Positions 55,479 to 63,926 of a stretch of DNA of 64,000 nucleotides are shown here, piece by piece. The stretch is taken from positions 1-64,000 of the forward strand of contig NZ_JAKGGD010000002.1 in NCBI RefSeq assembly GCF_021556615.1, given 5' to 3'. Positions within the stretch are counted from its first letter, which is position 1. Each line of letters begins with the position of its first letter. The DNA comes from Paracoccus salsus (GTDB lineage: Bacteria > Pseudomonadota > Alphaproteobacteria > Rhodobacterales > Rhodobacteraceae). The notes under the pieces are model-generated. The model had not been told where the DNA came from, did not search any database, and saw only the letters and a program-made list of their open reading frames with translations. Made by a program: the position numbers and the translations under genes.

Positions 55479-56693
55479 TCAGGCGCCGCCGACCGCTTTT
55501 GACGGCGCGGAAGCGGCATCGGGCGCGACTTCCCGCGCTGGCATCTTGTCCGTTGCCACGTCCCGTCGGAAGGGATCGGGACCGTTCAAGTCGGCGATCG
55601 GGGGCTCGTTCCGTCCCTCCTGCGGCGCCGGCTCGGACAGAGGCGCTTCCGCGATCGCCCCCGGATCGCTGAGCCGGATTGCGTGACATCCTTCGGCTTC
55701 GCCGAACTTGCCCACCGCAAGAAGCTGACCATCGCGTGTTTCCAGGCGGGATTGGGTCAGGCTGACCTTTGGCAGATGCAGCAGCTTGCCCTCGCCCAGA
55801 CCGCGCAATTCACCCAGTGTCATCCTGCGCCGGCACAATACGCCGACCATTTCGACGGGGGCATCGGCGACATGGGCCTGAAGCGTCGATGCCGCCGGCG
55901 CGCCAACGGGCTTCGCGCCGGCTGAGCCCGGCCCTGCCGCAGTTCTGCTTTTGGCCTGTGGGTCCTCACCTGCAGCCACGACCGACGACGCAGGCACTGA
56001 AGGTGCCGGTTTCTGCTTGCCCTCACCACGGGTCGGCAACGCCAGAAAGATGGTCGTGTCGCGCGTTTCTGCCCCGCCCAGCCGCACATTGAACGTGATG
56101 CTGCGATAAGGCTTGTCCTCCAGCATCAGCGACAAGGGCCGCGGATCATCCAGGTAGCTGGCATAGCGATAGCCCTTGATCCCCGCGAAACCTTCGACGT
56201 CGAGCATTTCGGTCGCCAGTTCGGCCATCAGCGCGTTGATGAAGTCAGCGCACATCATCGCATCGCTTCGCGTCGGCCGACGCGGTTCCGCCGTTCGCGC
56301 GGTGATGCGGCCAAGCGTCTGGACCTCGATCAGTGCGGTGACCGTCTCGGGGCACAGCGCCATCGCGCCGACCAGATCGCCCGGACCCTGCAGGATCGCC
56401 AGCAAGGCCGGCGCCGGCAGCAGTTCAGGCAGTTCGGCCAGCGTGAGCGCCCCGGGTGTCACCGAGATCGGCTGCACGCCGAGATGATACAGCCGGTCCG
56501 CGGCGCGACCGATCGCCGTGGCGGCGGCCCGCGACGCGGTCGGAGCTGCCGGTTGGGGAAGTTGCGGCGCGCGCCCCGCCCCCGACGCTGCCTGACTGCG
56601 CGCGGCAAGCAGGCGGCGCAGCACGCCCCCATCCGGTCCGTCCTGCCCGTCTTGCTGTTTCGCGACTGCTGTGCCGTCGTCTGCCATCGTCAA
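55479..56693 (-). CDS. FliM/FliN-domain (SpoA) protein of unknown role
   Basis: A 404-residue soluble protein. The N-terminal third (residues 1-60) is low complexity, followed by a FliM-like middle domain (PISVTPGALTLAELPELLPAP, DAMMCADFINALMAELATEML). A Pro/Ala linker precedes a C-terminal SpoA domain (LQAHVADAPVEMVGVLCRRRMTLGELRGLGEGKLLHLP). This layout is that of a switch-complex or type III C-ring protein. No flagellar or secretion genes are nearby, so it may be a stand-alone relative. It is divergent from infA? No: same strand, upstream of infA by 86 bases. Confidence 0.75.
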   Translation of the reverse strand: MTMADDGTAVAKQQDGQDGPDGGVLRRLLAARSQAASGAGRAPQLPQPAAPTASRAAATAIGRAADRLYHLGVQPISVTPGALTLAELPELLPAPALLAILQGPGDLVGAMALCPETVTALIEVQTLGRITARTAEPRRPTRSDAMMCADFINALMAELATEMLDVEGFAGIKGYRYASYLDDPRPLSLMLEDKPYRSITFNVRLGGAETRDTTIFLALPTRGEGKQKPAPSVPASSVVAAGEDPQAKSRTAAGPGSAGAKPVGAPAASTLQAHVADAPVEMVGVLCRRRMTLGELRGLGEGKLLHLPKVSLTQSRLETRDGQLLAVGKFGEAEGCHAIRLSDPGAIAEAPLSEPAPQEGRNEPPIADLNGPDPFRRDVATDKMPAREVAPDAASAPSKAVGGA

Positions 56694-56747: not shown

Positions 56748-59420
56748 TTATGGGACAGCGTCCTCCTGGGTCGGCACCGCACCCGACGGCGGCCTGCGCG
56801 GCACTGTGATGCGGAACGCCGCACCGTCCTGACCCGGCAGATAGTCGATTTCGCCCCCAAGGGCCGCCATGATCTCGCGGCAGATTGCCAGCCCCAGCCC
56901 CGCCCCGCCTGCCCGAGCCGGATCGTTGAGGCGCGCGAATTTCTCGAAGATGAGCTTCTGCCGAGAGCCGTCGATCCCGGACCCGTTGTCGATGATATCG
57001 ATCGCGGCGCCGCCGGCGGCGGGTTGGCGCACCCTGATCTTGAGGACCGGCCGCGACGAGTCGCAGTATTTGCGCGAATTCGAGATCACGTTGATCAGCA
57101 CCTGCAACAAGCGGTCCGCATCCGTGATGACGGCCACATGTTCGGATGGCATGTCGCGATCCACCGTGAACACGCGTTCCGACCGCGTCGCCGACGCGGC
57201 CTGCAATGCACGCGAGATCAGGTCATGCAGATTGCTGGCCGAGACGTTCAACTGGGCGCGCCCGCTTTCCAGCACCGACAAATCCAGCAGGTCGTCCAGA
57301 AGGCGGGTGAGCCGCGCGGCCTCGTCATGGATGATGCCCGCAAAGCGCGCCCGCTCTTCCTCAGACAGGTCGGGTGTCATCAGGATCTCGGAGAACGCCC
57401 TGACCGAGGTCATCGGAGTCCGCAATTCATGGCTGATCTGGCTCAGGAACGCGTCCTTCTGCACCGAGAGGGCGGTCAGCTTGTCGTTCGCCTCGCGCAG
57501 CTGCGTGGCGGTGCGGGCCAGCTCGTTCGTTGCGTTTTCAAGCCGCTGCGCCTCTTCCTTGGCGCGATGCGCCTCGTCCGCCACCTGCAGCAGGTCCGAC
57601 ACGGTCAGGGCAACGCCGCCAGCCACCCGGTCGATCATCGCATGCGCGGTTGCGGCGCCGATCGATCCGGCCAGCCGCCGCTCGAGCCGGGTCAGGAAAT
57701 TCGGGGTCAGATCCGGCAGATAGCCGGTTTTTCCCTGTGCGGCCGCCTCGGCCTGAAAATAGCGCAGTGCGGAATCGGCGCCCCAGACCCGCCGCGTCAT
57801 CGCCAGCAACGGTTCGGCCCGGTCCTCGCCCCGGGTCGTCCGGCTGTAACGGATCGGTTCGACCGCGCTGACAAAGGACAGACCCTGCAGCCGCTCGACA
57901 GGGTCGGGAAAGCCGAAGATCGAAACCCCGATGAACGCCAGCGTGTTGACGGTCAACGAACTGAAGATGCTGAACGCCAGCGGATCGACGCCCGAAGGCA
58001 GCACCGGCGGATGCCCGATCCCGACCGAGGGCATGAAGATCAGCCCAAGCCACAGCGCAAACCCGACCCCCACGCCGGCATAGGCCCCCCGCCGGTTGGC
58101 GCCGCGCCACAGAAGCCCACCCAGCATCGCGGGCAGCACCTGCGCCATGCCGGTAAACGCCACCAGCCCCATCGCGGCCAGCGCGGCCGCCCCGCCCGAG
58201 GCCTCGTGATAGACCCAGCCGGCCGCAACGACGGCCAGGATCGCCAGACGGCGCGCGTTCAAGACGAAACCCCTCAGGTCCTCGGTGTCCTCGCGTGCGG
58301 GGCGGCGGCGCAGCGCCAGCCAGCCAGGCACGATCCAGTGGTTCGAAATCATCGTTGCCAGCGCGATCGCACAGACCACGACCATCGACGTGGCGGCCGA
58401 GAACCCTCCCAGAAACACCAGGAACGCCAGCATGTTCTGGCCTGCAGCCGCCGGCAGGGTCAGGACGTACAGATCGGGGTTCGATCCGGCCGGCAGCAAC
58501 TCGCGGCCCATCACGGCGATCGGCAGCACGAACAGTGACATCGCGAAGAGATAGGCGGGGAAAGCCCAGCCGGCCACGTGCAGGCGTTCCTCGTCCGCGG
58601 CCTCGACCACCATGACCTGAAACATCCGCGGCAGGGTCAGGATGGCCGCAGCCGAGACGACGATCAGCGCGGTCCAGCGATCGGGTCGCAGCACCCAGCC
58701 ATCGGCGACGGCGGGGTCGCGGCCCGCCCGTGCGATCCGCGACATCATGTCGGCCGGCCCGTCTGCCAGCCCCCAGACCACGAAAACCCCAAGCGCGAGA
58801 AAGGCCAGCAGCTTGACCAGCGCCTCAAGGGCGATGGCGGTGACGACGCCGTGGTGACGCTCATCGGCGGCAAGGTTCCGGGTGCCGAACAGGATCGTGA
58901 ACAGTGCCAACCCCGCCGCCACCCAGAGGCCGGTGCCACCTGTGGCGCCGTTCATGGCGGCGCCGGTGGGCGACTCGGTCGCGAACACCTCGAAGGACAG
59001 ACGCACCGACTGCAACTGCAGCGCGATATAGGGTGTGGCGGCGATCACCGCGATCAGCGTGACCAGTGCCGCCAGCGGGTTCGACTTGCCGAACCGCGCC
59101 GAGATCAGGTCCGCGATCGAGGTGACGTGATGCATCCGTGCGACCCGCACCAGTCGCCGCAAGCCCCACCAGGCCGCCGTGAAGACGATGGTCGGTCCCA
59201 GATAGATCGTGACGAACTCAAGTCCCGAGCGGCTGGCATAGCCGACCGCCCCGTAGAACGTCCACGCCGAGCAATAGACCGACAGGGACAAGGTGTAGAT
59301 CAACGGGTGGTCCAGCCAGCGCACCCGCCCGCGCGCGGCGGCGCGATCCGCCGCGAAGGCCACGCCGAACATCAGCACCACATAGGCCAGGCAACCCGCC
59401 ACGAGGGTTTCAAAGGGCAT
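56748..59420 (-). CDS. Sodium/solute symporter-fused sensor histidine kinase (CbrA-like)
   Basis: A 890-residue membrane sensor. Residues 1-510 form a sodium:solute-symporter-like domain with about 13 hydrophobic segments (YTLSLSVYCSAWTFYGAVGYAS, GFSAATSMVVVCAIALATMISN). A cytoplasmic linker and coiled coil lead to a HisKA domain with QISHELRTPMTSVRAFSEIL, then a HATPase with IDNGSGI, FEKFARLND and GAGLGLAI. The start at 59420 matches the symporter N-terminus. It overlaps a small membrane protein gene by 11 bases and is 3' to a lone receiver gene. The transported or sensed solute is unknown. Confidence 0.88.
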   Translation of the reverse strand: MPFETLVAGCLAYVVLMFGVAFAADRAAARGRVRWLDHPLIYTLSLSVYCSAWTFYGAVGYASRSGLEFVTIYLGPTIVFTAAWWGLRRLVRVARMHHVTSIADLISARFGKSNPLAALVTLIAVIAATPYIALQLQSVRLSFEVFATESPTGAAMNGATGGTGLWVAAGLALFTILFGTRNLAADERHHGVVTAIALEALVKLLAFLALGVFVVWGLADGPADMMSRIARAGRDPAVADGWVLRPDRWTALIVVSAAAILTLPRMFQVMVVEAADEERLHVAGWAFPAYLFAMSLFVLPIAVMGRELLPAGSNPDLYVLTLPAAAGQNMLAFLVFLGGFSAATSMVVVCAIALATMISNHWIVPGWLALRRRPAREDTEDLRGFVLNARRLAILAVVAAGWVYHEASGGAAALAAMGLVAFTGMAQVLPAMLGGLLWRGANRRGAYAGVGVGFALWLGLIFMPSVGIGHPPVLPSGVDPLAFSIFSSLTVNTLAFIGVSIFGFPDPVERLQGLSFVSAVEPIRYSRTTRGEDRAEPLLAMTRRVWGADSALRYFQAEAAAQGKTGYLPDLTPNFLTRLERRLAGSIGAATAHAMIDRVAGGVALTVSDLLQVADEAHRAKEEAQRLENATNELARTATQLREANDKLTALSVQKDAFLSQISHELRTPMTSVRAFSEILMTPDLSEEERARFAGIIHDEAARLTRLLDDLLDLSVLESGRAQLNVSASNLHDLISRALQAASATRSERVFTVDRDMPSEHVAVITDADRLLQVLINVISNSRKYCDSSRPVLKIRVRQPAAGGAAIDIIDNGSGIDGSRQKLIFEKFARLNDPARAGGAGLGLAICREIMAALGGEIDYLPGQDGAAFRITVPRRPPSGAVPTQEDAVP

Positions 59421-59739
59421 GATCGTCGTCCCCCTGATCGGGGCGCGCCGGCGCGGCAGCAGCCGGCGGCGCGAGGCTCTCGGCGACCGCGGATTCGGCG
59501 CGCAATGTCGCCGCCTCGGCGCGCAGCAGCGCACGGTGCAGCGCCCATATGGCAAGGATCAGCACTGCCCACAGGCCGAAGAGCCATCCGGCACCAGCCG
59601 CGAAGCTGAGCTGCCGGGGAATCCACCAGACCGGCGCAAGCGCCGCGATCGCCGCGACCACGGGCAGGATCCGGGCGGCGTCGCCCAGCCTGCGGCGCCT
59701 GAACGATGCCCGTTCCAGAAACAGCGGACGTTCCGGCAT
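59410..59739 (-). CDS. Small membrane protein upstream of the symporter-kinase
   Basis: A 109-residue protein with two hydrophobic stretches (about 24-41 and 50-66) and an Ala/Pro/Glu-rich tail. It has no named domain, but its place just before a symporter-fused kinase recalls small partner subunits of solute symporters. The start at 59739 has GAGAGG upstream. It overlaps the kinase start by 11 bases and lies 34 bases beyond the receiver gene. Confidence 0.65.
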   Translation of the reverse strand: MPERPLFLERASFRRRRLGDAARILPVVAAIAALAPVWWIPRQLSFAAGAGWLFGLWAVLILAIWALHRALLRAEAATLRAESAVAESLAPPAAAAPARPDQGDDDHAL

Positions 59740-59773
59740 CAGCGCCTCTCTTGAGGGGGCATGGTGATGGCGT

Positions 59774-60133
59774 TCATTCCAGCATCCTGCGCACCAGATC
59801 GCGCAGATCCTGGTTGGCAAAGGGCTTGGCCAGCACCGCGTCCGCCTGCTCGGCGGCGGCCGCCGTCTCGCCCCGCGCCGTCAGCATCAGGACCGGGGTC
59901 GAGGCCAGAGCCGGATCCGGGTCGGACCGCAACTCGGCCAGAATTTCGGTGCCGGAGCGGTTGGGCAGCATCAGGTCGAGGATGACCAGCCGCGGTCGGT
60001 TCTCGCGGATTGCCTCGATGCCGCCCTCGCCATCCGGATGCAGCCGCAGGCGCCAACCGTCTCGGCCGAGGATGAAACGCACGGCCTCGGCGATGTTCCG
60101 CTCGTCCTCGATCATCAGGATGTCCAGCATCAT
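59774..60133 (-). CDS. Single-domain response regulator
   Basis: A 119-residue CheY-like receiver without output domain. The acidic pair is EDE (about 9-11), the phospho-acceptor Asp is in VILDLMLPNRSG (near 53), the conserved Thr/Ser position is MLTARGE, and the Lys is in LAKPFAN. It is the first gene of an operon with the small membrane protein and the histidine kinase, so it is probably the kinase's phosphorylation partner. The output is unknown; it may act on a protein rather than on DNA. Confidence 0.88.
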   Translation of the reverse strand: MMLDILMIEDERNIAEAVRFILGRDGWRLRLHPDGEGGIEAIRENRPRLVILDLMLPNRSGTEILAELRSDPDPALASTPVLMLTARGETAAAAEQADAVLAKPFANQDLRDLVRRMLE

Positions 60134-60232: not shown

Positions 60233-61507
60233 CTAGCGGGCCAGAAGGATCGAGGGTTCGCGCCTGGCCGCACAATCGGCGCGAGGGCAGATCCGGCAGG
60301 AGGAACCGATCGGAATGGCAGCGGAGGCTGGCGACGCGGCCGCGCCATCGCCCGGCAGGATCAGCATCTGAGCGCGGCTGAGGACCGGCCCGCCAATCCC
60401 TGCGGGCTGGCTGCGGGTCGCGAAGCTGAGCGTCGAGAACCGCCGGTCCTCGGGCGTGACCACGACATGCGAGATCGCGGTCTGCGGCGCCCCCAGAGCC
60501 TGATAGAGCGGCCACAGGGGACAGGCATCGCCTGGCCGCGGCAGCGGAAAACCCGGCGCCGGGCGCCGCAGCGTCAACGCCCCCGAGCCGTCGCAGACCA
60601 GCAAACCGGCCCGCTCGAACCCCGGCGGGCGCAATGCCGCCAGCCGCCGCATGACAAGATCCAGCGGACAGCCCAGCCGCGCGGCGATGCGCAGGGGGTC
60701 CCCCTCCTCGCGGGCGGCCGGAGCCAGAACCGCGTCCGGCAGGGCCGCGGTTTCCTCGTCCAGACGCGCCAGATGCGTGCGGGCAAGAAGACGTCCCGCA
60801 TCCGAGGCCAGATCGCGCGCCGCCTCGATCGAGGGAGTCCCCGCCGCCATCCAGGCCTCGACCTCTTCCTGCGGGGTAAAGATCGCGCCATCCGCCTCGA
60901 AGCTGTCGAGATAGGCGACCAGCGCCTGGGCGGTGTTGGACAGCCGCAGGCTGTCTTCGTCGAGATTGGCGCGAAAACGATGCCGCCATTCGTCGGGAAC
61001 CTCGGATTCTTCCGCGAGGATCGAGGCGGTCGAGCGAACCGAGGTCACCGCCGACAGCACCTCATGCAGCGTGGTCAGAAGATAGGGATCCTGGGTCATG
61101 CGGTCGGACAGTGTGACCAGTTGACGCTCGAGCGCCTCGGAGCGGCGGGCGAGGGCGACGAGCGCAGCCGCCCAGCCCGGAAATCGCGCGAGGAACTCGG
61201 GCGCCTGGTCCAGTTCCGGTGCCGCATCAGGTCCGTCGTCAGCCAGCCGCGCGACGGCCTCGCGAAGCGTGGCGATCCGCGCCTCTTCGCGGCCCTCGGC
61301 AAGCTCGTCCGATGGCACCTCGAGAACCTTGGCCAGTCGTTGCACCAGCTCTGGCCCGACCGGGCGGCGGTTATGCTCGATCAGGTTCAGATAGGCAGGC
61401 GAGATCCCCGCCGCGCGGGCCACATCGGCCTGCCGACGCGACAGCGCCAGACGGCGTTCGCGGATGCGGGTTCCGGTCAGGACGTGGCTGAGGCTGCGAC
61501 GGTTCAT
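60233..61507 (-). CDS. XRE-family regulator of the short-chain-acyl-CoA (ScfR/PrpR-like) type
   Basis: A 424-residue transcription regulator. The N-terminal Cro/CI-like HTH is TGTRIRERRLALSRRQADVARAAGISPAYLNLIEHNRR (about 10-48). The middle carries an IrrE/peptidase-like segment without the zinc site, and the C-terminus ends in a Cys-rich block GSSCRICPRADCAARREPS typical of the family. Relatives (RamB, PrpR) respond to acyl-CoAs and control glyoxylate or methylcitrate genes; no such genes adjoin here. Start at 61507 by family alignment; an ATG 36 bases earlier is possible. Confidence 0.78.
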   Translation of the reverse strand: MNRRSLSHVLTGTRIRERRLALSRRQADVARAAGISPAYLNLIEHNRRPVGPELVQRLAKVLEVPSDELAEGREEARIATLREAVARLADDGPDAAPELDQAPEFLARFPGWAAALVALARRSEALERQLVTLSDRMTQDPYLLTTLHEVLSAVTSVRSTASILAEESEVPDEWRHRFRANLDEDSLRLSNTAQALVAYLDSFEADGAIFTPQEEVEAWMAAGTPSIEAARDLASDAGRLLARTHLARLDEETAALPDAVLAPAAREEGDPLRIAARLGCPLDLVMRRLAALRPPGFERAGLLVCDGSGALTLRRPAPGFPLPRPGDACPLWPLYQALGAPQTAISHVVVTPEDRRFSTLSFATRSQPAGIGGPVLSRAQMLILPGDGAAASPASAAIPIGSSCRICPRADCAARREPSILLAR

Positions 61508-61658: not shown

Positions 61659-62522
61659 TCAGGGATGCAGCGACACGCCGTGGCGTCCGGCCAGATCGGT
61701 GAAGAACTGCCATGCCACCCGGCCGGAACGTCCGCCGCGCGTGGCCTGCCATTCGATCGCCTCGGCCCGCAGCGTCTGGGGCGCGATCGTCAGATCATAG
61801 GCGTCACAGTAACCCTGGACCATCGCCAGATACTCATCCTGCGAACAGGGATGAAAGCCCAGCCAAAGCCCGAACCGGTCCGACAGCGAGACCTTTTCCT
61901 CGACAGCCTCGCCCGGATGGATCGCGGTCGAACGTTCGTTGTCGATCATGTCACGCGGCATCAGGTGACGCCGGTTCGAGGTCGCATAGAGGAGCACGTT
62001 CCCGGGCCGCCCGCTGATGCCGCCATCCAGGACCGCCTTGAGAGACTTGTACTGGCTGTCATCGTGGCCGAACGACAGATCGTCCGCAAACAGCAGGAAT
62101 CGTCGATCCGTGGCGCGACCGAGGATCGCCAGAAGCCGTCCGACGGAGGCCAGATCCTCGCGCGCGATCTCGACCAGCACCAGCGGCAGCCCCTGGGCCA
62201 CGGCCTCGGCGTGGACGGCCTTGACCAGCGAGGACTTGCCCATGCCGCGGGCGCCCCAGAGAAGTGCATTGTTGGCCCCGTATCCGCGCGCGAACTGCAA
62301 GCTGTTGGCCAGCAGCGTCTGCTTGGCGCTTTCGATGCCGATCAGCTGCACCAGGTCGACACGGTCCACGGTCTGAACGGGCTCGAGCCGGTCGGGGTCG
62401 GGATGCCAGACATAGGCCGCGGCTTCGGTGAAGCGGGGCGCGTGGAACGGCGCCGGGGCCAGCCGCTCAAGCGCCGCCGCGATCCGCGTCAGCGCCTCGA
62501 GGCTGTCGCCCGGATCGCTCAT
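61659..62522 (-). CDS. DUF815 AAA-type ATPase
   Basis: A 287-residue P-loop ATPase of the DUF815 family. Walker A is [12 protein letters not shown] (about 90), Walker B is [11 protein letters not shown], and sensor-like [13 protein letters not shown] follows. C-terminal segments include [13 protein letters not shown] and [13 protein letters not shown]. It overlaps tatC by 4 bases, an arrangement common in alphaproteobacteria. The function is unknown; helicase-loader-like or membrane-related roles are guesses. Confidence 0.85.
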
Positions 62523-63412
62523 GCCTTGCCCTCGTCCTCGTCCTCGTCCTCGACCCATAGCCCCTGGGCGCGCAGTTCCGCCTCGCGGCGCTTCTCGATG
62601 CGGCGAACGAGATAGATCGAGATCTCGTAGAGGCCGTAGACGACCGTGAACAGCACCACCTGGCTGACGACATCCGGTGGCGTCGCGACAGCGGCCAGCA
62701 TCAGGATTGCCACGACGGCGTATTTGCGGACCGAGCCCAGCCCAACGGCGCTCACCAGCCCCGCCTTGCCCATCAGGGTCAGCAGGACCGGCAGCTGGAA
62801 ACTGAGCCCGAAGGCGAGGATGAACTTGGTGGTCAGCGAAAGATATTCGTCGACCGAACCCTGAAAGACGATCGCGGCCATCGGGTTGTCCGCGATCGCC
62901 TCGGCGGCAGGTTCAGCGCCGGTTCCGTCGTCGGGCAAGGCCAGCGGTCCCTGCTGGAAGCCCAGGAAAAAGTCATAGGCCAAAGGCAGGATGATGTAGT
63001 AGGCGAACGAGGCGCCCAGAAAGAACATGACCGGCGACGCGACCAGGAAGGGCAGGAATGCCTGTTTCTCGTTGCGGTAAAGCCCCGGCGCCACGAAACG
63101 CCACATCTGGTAGGCGATGATCGGAAAGGCCAGCACGAATCCGCCCAGCAGCGATATGCGGATCGCCACGAAGAAGCCTTCCTGCAATTTCAGCAGGATC
63201 AGTCCACATTCCTGATCCCGCGCCTCGAGCGCGTGGCAGATTGGCTGGGTCAGGAAGTTGTAGATCGGGTTCCAGACCGTATAGCACAAGACCATCGCCG
63301 AGACGAAGGCCAGCAAGGACCAGATGATGCGGGTCCGCAGCTCGGCCAGATGTTCGATCAGCGGGGCCGAGCTGTCATCAAGCTCGTCGTCCTTATCAGT
63401 CTTGCTGGCCAA
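62519..63412 (-). CDS. tatC: Sec-independent translocase subunit TatC
   Basis: A 297-residue core component of the twin-arginine translocase, which moves folded proteins across the inner membrane. Six hydrophobic helices are visible. The N-terminus reads [18 protein letters not shown], the conserved cytoplasmic Glu/Arg region for signal-peptide binding, and the first periplasmic loop follows. The C-terminus is acidic ([10 protein letters not shown]). It starts 1 base from the tatB stop and is followed by the DUF815 gene. Confidence 0.96.
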
Positions 63413-63413
63413 T

Positions 63414-63926
63414 TCAGGTGTCTTTCATGTCGCTGCGGCGCACGGCGTGCAGACGGCGTACACCGGCGGCCGATGCCTCGGGCGGCTCGGCCGACCCGTC
63501 CTCGCCGGCCGCGTCACCGGGCGTGGCGCTGGCAGGCTTGGGGCCGGCGGGCGTCGCGCTGGCGGGCGTGGCACCTTCGCCTGCGGGCTTCGGGGTCTGG
63601 CCCGGATCGGGCGTCGCCTTCTTGCGGGCGTCCGGTGACTTCGGGTCCCATTTCTCGAAGCGTTCCGTCGCGCGGTCCAGCGCGTCCAGTCCGAGCGATT
63701 TCTTCGAGGCCAGCGATTTCAGGTCACGCAGGCTTCCGGTCGCCTCGTCGATTCCCGAATCCTTGGCGGCATCCTCCATCGCCGAGGTGAATTCCCGCGC
63801 CATGCTGCGCGCCTTGGCGGTGAACCGCCCCAGCGAATGGAAAAGATGCGGCAGATCCTTGGGACCGACCACGATCAGCGCCACGACGCCGATCAGCAAC
63901 AGCTCGGTCCAGCCGATATCAAACAT
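63414..63926 (-). CDS. tatB: Sec-independent translocase subunit TatB
   Basis: A 170-residue protein with one N-terminal membrane helix ([34 protein letters not shown]) followed by an amphipathic helix and a long Ala/Pro-rich tail. TatB works with TatC in signal-peptide recognition. The GPKDLP hinge is typical of TatA/B. It is 21 bases downstream of tatA and 1 base from tatC. Confidence 0.95.

Follow-up and report, generated by a model that had tools for sequence, protein, structure and literature searches.

The first 64,000 nucleotides of contig NZ_JAKGGD010000002.1 of Paracoccus salsus (assembly GCF_021556615.1), the whole stretch analyzed here and hereafter called the window, carry on the minus strand the genes for a transcription regulator of the XRE/ScfR type, a single-domain receiver, a small membrane protein, and a histidine kinase with a transporter-like part (Table 1). 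An earlier note on this DNA had described the last three as an operon with no output gene. The three genes, their coordinates and strand, the 109-residue small protein with two hydrophobic segments, and the 11-nt overlap were all confirmed. The claim of a missing output was not: the conserved unit comprises at least four genes and begins with the regulator, which lies on the same strand as the receiver, 99 nt upstream of its start, and contains a domain resembling the DHp domain of the kinase. The regulator lies directly upstream of the receiver in 70 of 80 related loci, and the context refutes the absence of an output. We consider the regulator the probable output of the kinase and the single-domain receiver, reached through its DHp-like domain either by docking or by a phosphorelay.

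Table 1. Coordinates of the regulator–receiver–kinase locus in the window. Regulator residues are numbered with the second residue as 1 (start 61504), so that numbers counted from the ATG are one higher.
Feature	Position	Strand	Evidence or remark
XRE/ScfR-type transcription regulator, 424 aa	60233..61507	-	HTH_3 and ScfRs matches; predicted output
HTH_3 domain of regulator, residues 14-68	61301..61465	-	Pfam
DHp-like (HisKA-like) helical hairpin of regulator	60887..61171	-	CreC match, hhalign, profile scores, predicted helices
Codon of DHp-like histidine, H147 (H148 from the ATG)	61064..61066	-	Alignment rows
ScfR C-terminal domain with C328, C403, C406, C411, predicted [4Fe-4S] ligands	60248..60595	-	Pfam and conservation
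Single-domain receiver, 119 aa	59774..60133	-	Response_reg 2.5e-19
Small protein with two transmembrane segments, 109 aa, CbrX-like layout	59410..59739	-	Hydrophobic segments 22-40, 46-64
Overlap of small gene and kinase gene, 11 nt	59410..59420	-	Coordinates
SLC5-STAC histidine kinase, 890 aa	56748..59420	-	HisKA, HATPase_c, 10ed_A match
SLC5 transporter-like and STAC part of kinase	57633..59390	-	10ed_A 15-588, E 1.5e-67
DHp (HisKA) domain of kinase, H664	57261..57458	-	Pfam 1.7e-16
HATPase_c (CA) domain of kinase	56793..57122	-	Pfam 2.6e-20
FliM/FliN-like gene, possible fifth gene	55479..56687	-	FliMN_C 1.3e-7; 60-nt gap 3' of kinase

Conservation of the Four-Gene Unit

Two sets of loci were compared. 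The kinase-scan set was drawn from the kinase alignment alone (best 80 of 594 confirmed; most titles Rhodobacterales). The regulator-picked set comprises 40 relatives' loci (L039-L078) chosen from the best regulator matches, with neighbors sought by tblastn within 9 kb. Species overlap between the sets (e.g., L083 and L055), and their counts are not independent. The regulator alignment (A2) holds 71 of 76 loci and the window, with the short or cut rows L088, L101, L107, L129, and L153 left out; alignment A3 holds 44 of those 71 loci, A4 34 of 78 loci, and A1 13 of the 40 regulator-picked loci, each with the window added.

The order receiver, small open reading frame (ORF) with two transmembrane segments, kinase recurs in 78 of the 80 kinase-scan loci. 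The exceptions are L079, where the contig starts at the kinase, and L129, where the small ORF was missed by our ORF rule and found by tblastn. The small gene, whose presence in orthologous loci the earlier note had proposed to check, is thus conserved there. The receiver is present in 79 loci and the regulator was found in 76. In 70 of these a full-length regulator gene immediately precedes that of the receiver, in three (L128, L129, L154) a gap of more than 400 nt intervenes, and in three (L088, L107, L153) the contig end cuts it. Three loci with enough flank have no regulator match (L099, L111, L136), and the L079 contig does not extend to its position. Among the regulator-picked loci, the kinase was found in 40/40, the receiver in 33/40, the small gene in 38/40, and a FliM/N-like gene in 35/40. 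The annotation of Paracoccus ferrooxidans gives the same order: XRE regulator, response regulator, hypothetical protein, sodium:solute symporter (the kinase), and FliM/FliN family protein.

A ScfR-Type Regulator

Both domains of ScfR regulators are present in the window regulator (HTH_3, 7e-12; ScfRs, 3.4e-16). C328 and the motif C403-X2-C406-X4-C411 are kept in 72/72 regulator rows, in the same pattern as the four [4Fe-4S] cysteines of PrpR (MtPrpR Cys363 and 447-X2-450-X4-455; PMC10370305, PMC6765138). Residues 209-423 of the regulator model match PrpR (Z 16.9-17.3, 210-214 residues aligned, best three entries). VIA-align covers mainly the helix-turn-helix (HTH) and PrpR part of the model and is therefore uninformative on the region between them.

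The XRE HTH, the ScfR C-terminal domain, and the four cysteines are common to this protein and the ScfR regulators RamB, PccR, and MccR/PrpR, and its relatives also show paired candidate operator boxes. It differs in having a DHp-like hairpin inserted and in lacking a match to the M78 lobe (Pfam, E ≤ 1). The M78 region of PrpR helps to form an acyl-CoA pocket (PMC10370305, PMC6765138), and in a hand alignment the pocket residues of PrpR were not matched: F240 falls before the aligned part and H319 lies opposite R286. In the divergent loci L075-L078, the first three from other families and the last from the same-genus genome G051, the regulator has the HTH, the hairpin region, M78 (over the cut-off in three, just below it in L075), and ScfRs. 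This distribution suggests that the hairpin was inserted first and that the acyl-CoA lobe was later lost in the main group. Matches to the regulator at 34-36% in further genomes of the genus (G002, G028, G035, G054) may represent the L078 version.

Pden_1785 of Paracoccus denitrificans belongs to the ScfR network, and its gene is described as lying in a cluster with a two-component system (PMC10370305); judged by this published neighborhood, it is probably the ortholog of the window regulator. XrpA, a 120-residue XRE repressor of ctrA in Cereibacter, is a different protein. A Cereibacter transposon study mentions PccR, and the words histidine kinase and response regulator are absent from its main text.

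A Kinase-Like Hairpin within the Regulator

Between the HTH and ScfR domains, where NCBIfam gives a weak kinase match (CreC, 5e-5), AlphaFold2 predicts helices at residues 109-138, 140-164, and 171-204 (mean pLDDT, the predicted local distance difference test score, 86.9). The predicted structure and the alignments together describe a two-helix hairpin with a conserved histidine near the start of helix 1, as expected of a DHp domain. Of 77 alignment rows, three are truncated and 74 cover the histidine, which is H in 73 of them; in the other set it is H in 41/41 rows.

Aligned by hhalign with the DHp domains of the operon kinases, the hairpin gave a probability of 96.7 (E 4.3e-10) with histidine opposite histidine, and 11 control pairings all gave ≤1.7%. 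Its profile lists 81/81 operon kinases at 9.3-43.9 bits (median 28). Controls with ten column shuffles and the reversed profile had medians ≤-0.3 and a top single score of 8.8. Seven of the 11 additional kinase places listed for the same genome were compared; six scored ≤1.1 bits and L006 was not listed. Further matches of the profile are the orthologs L189 (23.4 bits) and L190 (28.6 bits) and three paralogous SLC5 kinases whose receiver is a separate protein (L191-L193, 23.6-27.3 bits). It gives little or nothing with three SLC5 kinases of greater length, 1169-1188 aa (L195, 2.9; L196, 1.6; L194, not listed). We infer that the last three are of the CrbS/RpuS hybrid kind because of their length and, for L194, an annotation as PAS-domain protein. 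By profile comparison, then, the regulator hairpin is homologous to the DHp domain of the operon kinase.

Several results weigh against this assignment. The profile finds no histidine kinase in PDB at E ≤ 1, so that the likeness is to the operon-kinase subfamily and not to kinases at large. Pfam HisKA has no match in the window regulator; it falls below the cut-off in four relatives (0.0012, 0.021, 0.092, 0.17) and is unmatched in L077 and L145. In a Foldseek search with the hairpin alone, histidine-kinase chains rank 1-4 at nonsignificant values (best E 0.12). One covering row has N in place of the histidine, and the proline five residues after the phospho-histidine is not kept. The hairpin might thus be an ordinary coiled-coil dimerization element whose likeness to DHp is convergent, which would suit a short helical region with neither a PDB kinase match nor a significant Foldseek hit. 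We regard this as highly unlikely, since the histidine-on-histidine match is specific to one kinase subfamily and is lost on shuffling, and the histidine is nearly invariant.

DHp-like domains that exchange phosphate with receivers are known from the Spo0F-Spo0B pair and from ChpT. Unlike in Spo0B and ChpT, the DHp-like domain here lies within a DNA-binding transcription factor. No description of such a domain in a ScfR regulator was found in the available text of the open-licence PMC papers searched, PMC10688885 included. What is new here, and testable, is a regulator that contains a kinase-like candidate docking domain.

Candidate Operators and Targets

At 41 kinase-scan loci the gene divergent from the regulator encodes the binding protein of an ABC importer of the branched-chain/urea type; in L131 it is followed by two permeases and an ATPase, as read from sequence. 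The word TTGTAAA is enriched in the regulator upstream regions (50/111) and gave the box [TC]TGTAAA. This box occurs in 39 of the 41 divergent intergenic regions, and 26 of the 41 contain two boxes on one strand at a spacing of 30-34 nt; in 200 Markov-shuffled sets a mean of 4.1 loci had a box (maximum 11) and pairs never arose. In a few loci the divergent start is placed too close and the intergenic region is short. Because the box was chosen from promoters and then tested on them, its count is partly circular, which weakens it as support for the regulator as output and leaves the spacing alone as an independent signal. Over all loci the spacing is exactly 32 nt in 27 pairs. Published ScfR sites consist of two near-identical boxes with an 18-bp spacer (PMC10370305), which the 32-nt spacing would fit if the box were 14 bp. 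We predict that the paired TGTAAA boxes are ScfR-type operators in the relatives with a divergent importer.

In L075-L078 the regulator likewise has this binding-protein gene as its neighbor (60-73% identity), and boxes are found in three of these four regions, in other arrangements. In L078 it is an M78-bearing regulator that is divergent from this gene. The window's genome has two one-mismatch TTGYAAA pairs, with none in the reversed control.

For the ABC-importer target, the lactate importer SPO1017-1021 of Ruegeria pomeroyi is no more than a guess. These genes are named as a lactic acid transporter (PMC9870897, PMC9723723). In the Ruegeria-group loci L114, L120, and L149 the divergent gene encodes a PAS-plus-LuxR-like regulator, as read from sequence, and no importer-type gene stands beside the regulator, which counts against this guess.

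A Probable Route from Kinase and Receiver to Regulator

As the earlier note had proposed, the receiver has no DNA-binding domain; Response_reg is its only Pfam match at E ≤ 1. Its active-site residues D10, D53, and K103 are kept in 80/80 rows and T85 in 78/80. Single-domain receivers often have no known output.

Other observations count against the regulator as the output of this kinase and receiver. L099, L111, and L136, with enough flank, have the receiver, small protein, and kinase and no regulator match in the sequence searched, and in L078 the regulator gene lies outside the operon of the kinase, to which it is convergent. The closest match to the importer's binding protein in the window's genome has 25% identity and is no near relative, and a search of this genome for TGTAAA pairs gave 0 matches. 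The strongest result against a strict relay is that 7 of the 40 regulator-picked loci (L064-L070) have no in-operon receiver, yet keep the regulator, its histidine (7/7), and the kinase. All seven genomes encode another receiver, 44-50% identical to that of the window, so that in these relatives either the relay may run through the second receiver or the receiver may not be essential. In two of the seven, the neighbors of the second receiver are an SSF symporter, DUF294 protein, and exonuclease (L172) and an acetyl-CoA synthetase, DUF485 protein, and SSF symporter (L176). Such paralogs also occur in genomes with an in-operon receiver, the window's own included (49%). This last copy (L188, contig C26) clusters with genes for an acetyl-CoA synthetase, an SSF symporter without a kinase match, a DUF294/CBS protein, and an RNase_T exonuclease.

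The receiver-less loci would also suit a kinase that acts directly on the regulator, either by phosphorylation of the DHp-like histidine by its CA domain or by pairing of the two DHp domains, with the receiver as a phosphate sink or brake; so would the fact that the DHp-like domain is closest to the subfamily of the operon's own kinase. This seems unlikely, because the receiver is found in 79/80 loci with its active site intact and because the second receiver of the seven exceptional genomes could substitute for it.

The output of the receiver might instead lie elsewhere, in the downstream FliM/FliN-like gene or another operon, with the regulator merely an autoregulated neighbor. CheY-type receivers are known to act on FliM, and the FliM/N-like gene lies beside the unit in all but five of the regulator-picked loci. 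Four of these five misses are L075-L078, where the regulator, receiver, and kinase are kept; at the fifth, L043, the sequence ends at the kinase. An output elsewhere would moreover leave the kinase-like domain of the regulator unexplained, and we think it quite improbable. Besides the FliM/N-like gene, the window's genome has FliMN_C at one further place and a single flagellin, so the gene may simply be a (divergent) FliM. In G058 the flagellin is unmatched and the FliM/N-like gene is kept. On the other side of the unit, upstream of the regulator, positions 61659-63926 of the minus strand hold genes for a DUF815 AAA protein and for TatC-like and TatB-like proteins (Tat names read from sequence); all three are near the regulator in 11 of the 40 regulator-picked loci.

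The Transporter-Like Kinase and Its Small Membrane Protein

The earlier note's view of the kinase as a CbrA-like symporter-kinase was borne out. Its residues 11-596 align with PDB 10ed_A, a histidine kinase chain (E 2.4e-67), and HisKA and HATPase_c domains follow, with H664 invariant in 14 rows. The size and residue numbering of 10ed agree with the pocket residues given in PMC13022988, and we take it to be the CbrA SLC5-STAC structure described there; the protein would then have the architecture of an SLC5/STAC kinase. Pfam SSF has no match on it at E ≤ 1, and the match to the solved structure served in its place. By hydropathy there are 21 overlapping stretches, compared with the 13 transmembrane segments of SLC5/STAC kinases, and the 10ed match spans the whole region. 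PAS and REC are unmatched (Pfam, E ≤ 1).

The CbrA pocket is formed by Y51, S53, W55, A56, F71, Y75, F248, and F406, with K196 at the Na2 site (PMC13022988). A hand alignment to 10ed places Y49, S51, W53, T54, F69, Y73, S256, and F422 at the pocket positions and K203 at that of K196. Six of the eight pocket residues and the Na2-site lysine are thus kept, and A56 and F248 are replaced by T54 and S256, which suggests a proton-coupled, CbrA-like pocket that may hold a different, perhaps more polar ligand.

The SLC5-STAC kinase, the Na2-site lysine, and the overlapping upstream gene for a two-helix peptide are shared with CbrX-CbrA/CbrB of Pseudomonas. No PAS domain was found here between STAC and DHp, and in place of the NtrC-type CbrB there are a single-domain receiver and the XRE/ScfR regulator, a difference in layout from CbrA/CbrB that the earlier note had noted. 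The kinases of CrbS/CrbR and RpuS/RpuR, whose known cases concern acetate and pyruvate use, belong to the same SLC5-STAC family; two from Sinorhizobium fredii are PAS/REC hybrids with LuxR-type regulators (PMC9100948, PMC5715377), none of which occurs here. A paralogous Paracoccus plasmid system (L191, L193) consists of a DUF294-type protein, a small hypothetical protein, a non-hybrid SLC5 kinase, a single-domain receiver, and an exonuclease. Its small protein has hydrophobic segments, and its kinase also matches the DHp-like profile of the regulator.

A gene for a two-helix membrane peptide that overlaps the kinase start is the layout of CbrX, a 58-aa peptide whose gene overlaps cbrA by 17 nt. 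An ORF with two transmembrane segments precedes the kinase in 78 of 80 kinase-scan loci; among these 78, it overlaps the kinase gene by 1 nt at 28 loci, by 4 nt at 17, and by 11 nt at six. The earlier note's suggestion that the small protein is a third component gains support from D20, P36, F54, and W57, which are kept in 79/79 rows, and the protein is probably a CbrX-like subunit. A search for the small protein gave no relevant PDB match at E ≤ 10, the presence of a CbrX chain in the set searched not being established; a match at E 4e-12 was dismissed as a sum over weak repeats.

The small gene could be only a translational coupler for the kinase gene, which the 11-nt overlap here and the 1- or 4-nt overlaps in 45/78 loci would allow. 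In Pseudomonas putida, CbrA production needed CbrX translation and not the CbrX sequence, frame-altered CbrX still giving CbrA, and CbrX is dispensable for growth on histidine (PMC6591292, PMC13022988). We nevertheless find this explanation rather unlikely, given the conserved residues of the small protein and the cryo-electron microscopy structure in which CbrX remains bound to the SLC5 part, packed on transmembrane segments 3 and 8 of CbrA (PMC6591292, PMC13022988).

A Proposed Signaling Route

Taken as a hypothesis from sequence and predicted structure, the unit of XRE-DHp-ScfR regulator, single-domain receiver, CbrX-like small membrane subunit, and SLC5-STAC histidine kinase could work as follows. 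An external solute would be sensed or moved by the transporter-like region of the kinase, against which the small protein would pack. The kinase would autophosphorylate at H664 and pass the phosphate to D53 of the receiver, as their intact motifs suggest. The receiver, itself not DNA-binding, would recognize the hairpin of the regulator, which would imitate the DHp surface of the kinase, and would either pass phosphate to H147 or only dock. DNA binding by the regulator would then change, presumably at the paired boxes 32 nt apart that are predicted in relatives with a divergent ABC-importer gene. The stricter version, a phosphorelay from kinase histidine to receiver aspartate to a kinase-derived histidine in an XRE/ScfR regulator that has traded its acyl-CoA lobe for two-component input, is possible, and we put it forward tentatively.

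If this phosphorelay is real, the divergent relatives that have both lobes would join outside solute and inside acyl-CoA signals in one protein. For a conserved single-domain receiver there is now an output that can be tested, namely a transcription factor containing a domain similar to one in its partner kinase. The unit would, if the proposal holds, represent a way of connecting a receiver to DNA that needs no DNA-binding response regulator, and a further regulatory layout for the transporter-kinase family. It would also explain the published occurrence of a ScfR regulator near a two-component system, and it would make the role of a CbrX-like subunit testable in a second bacterial group.

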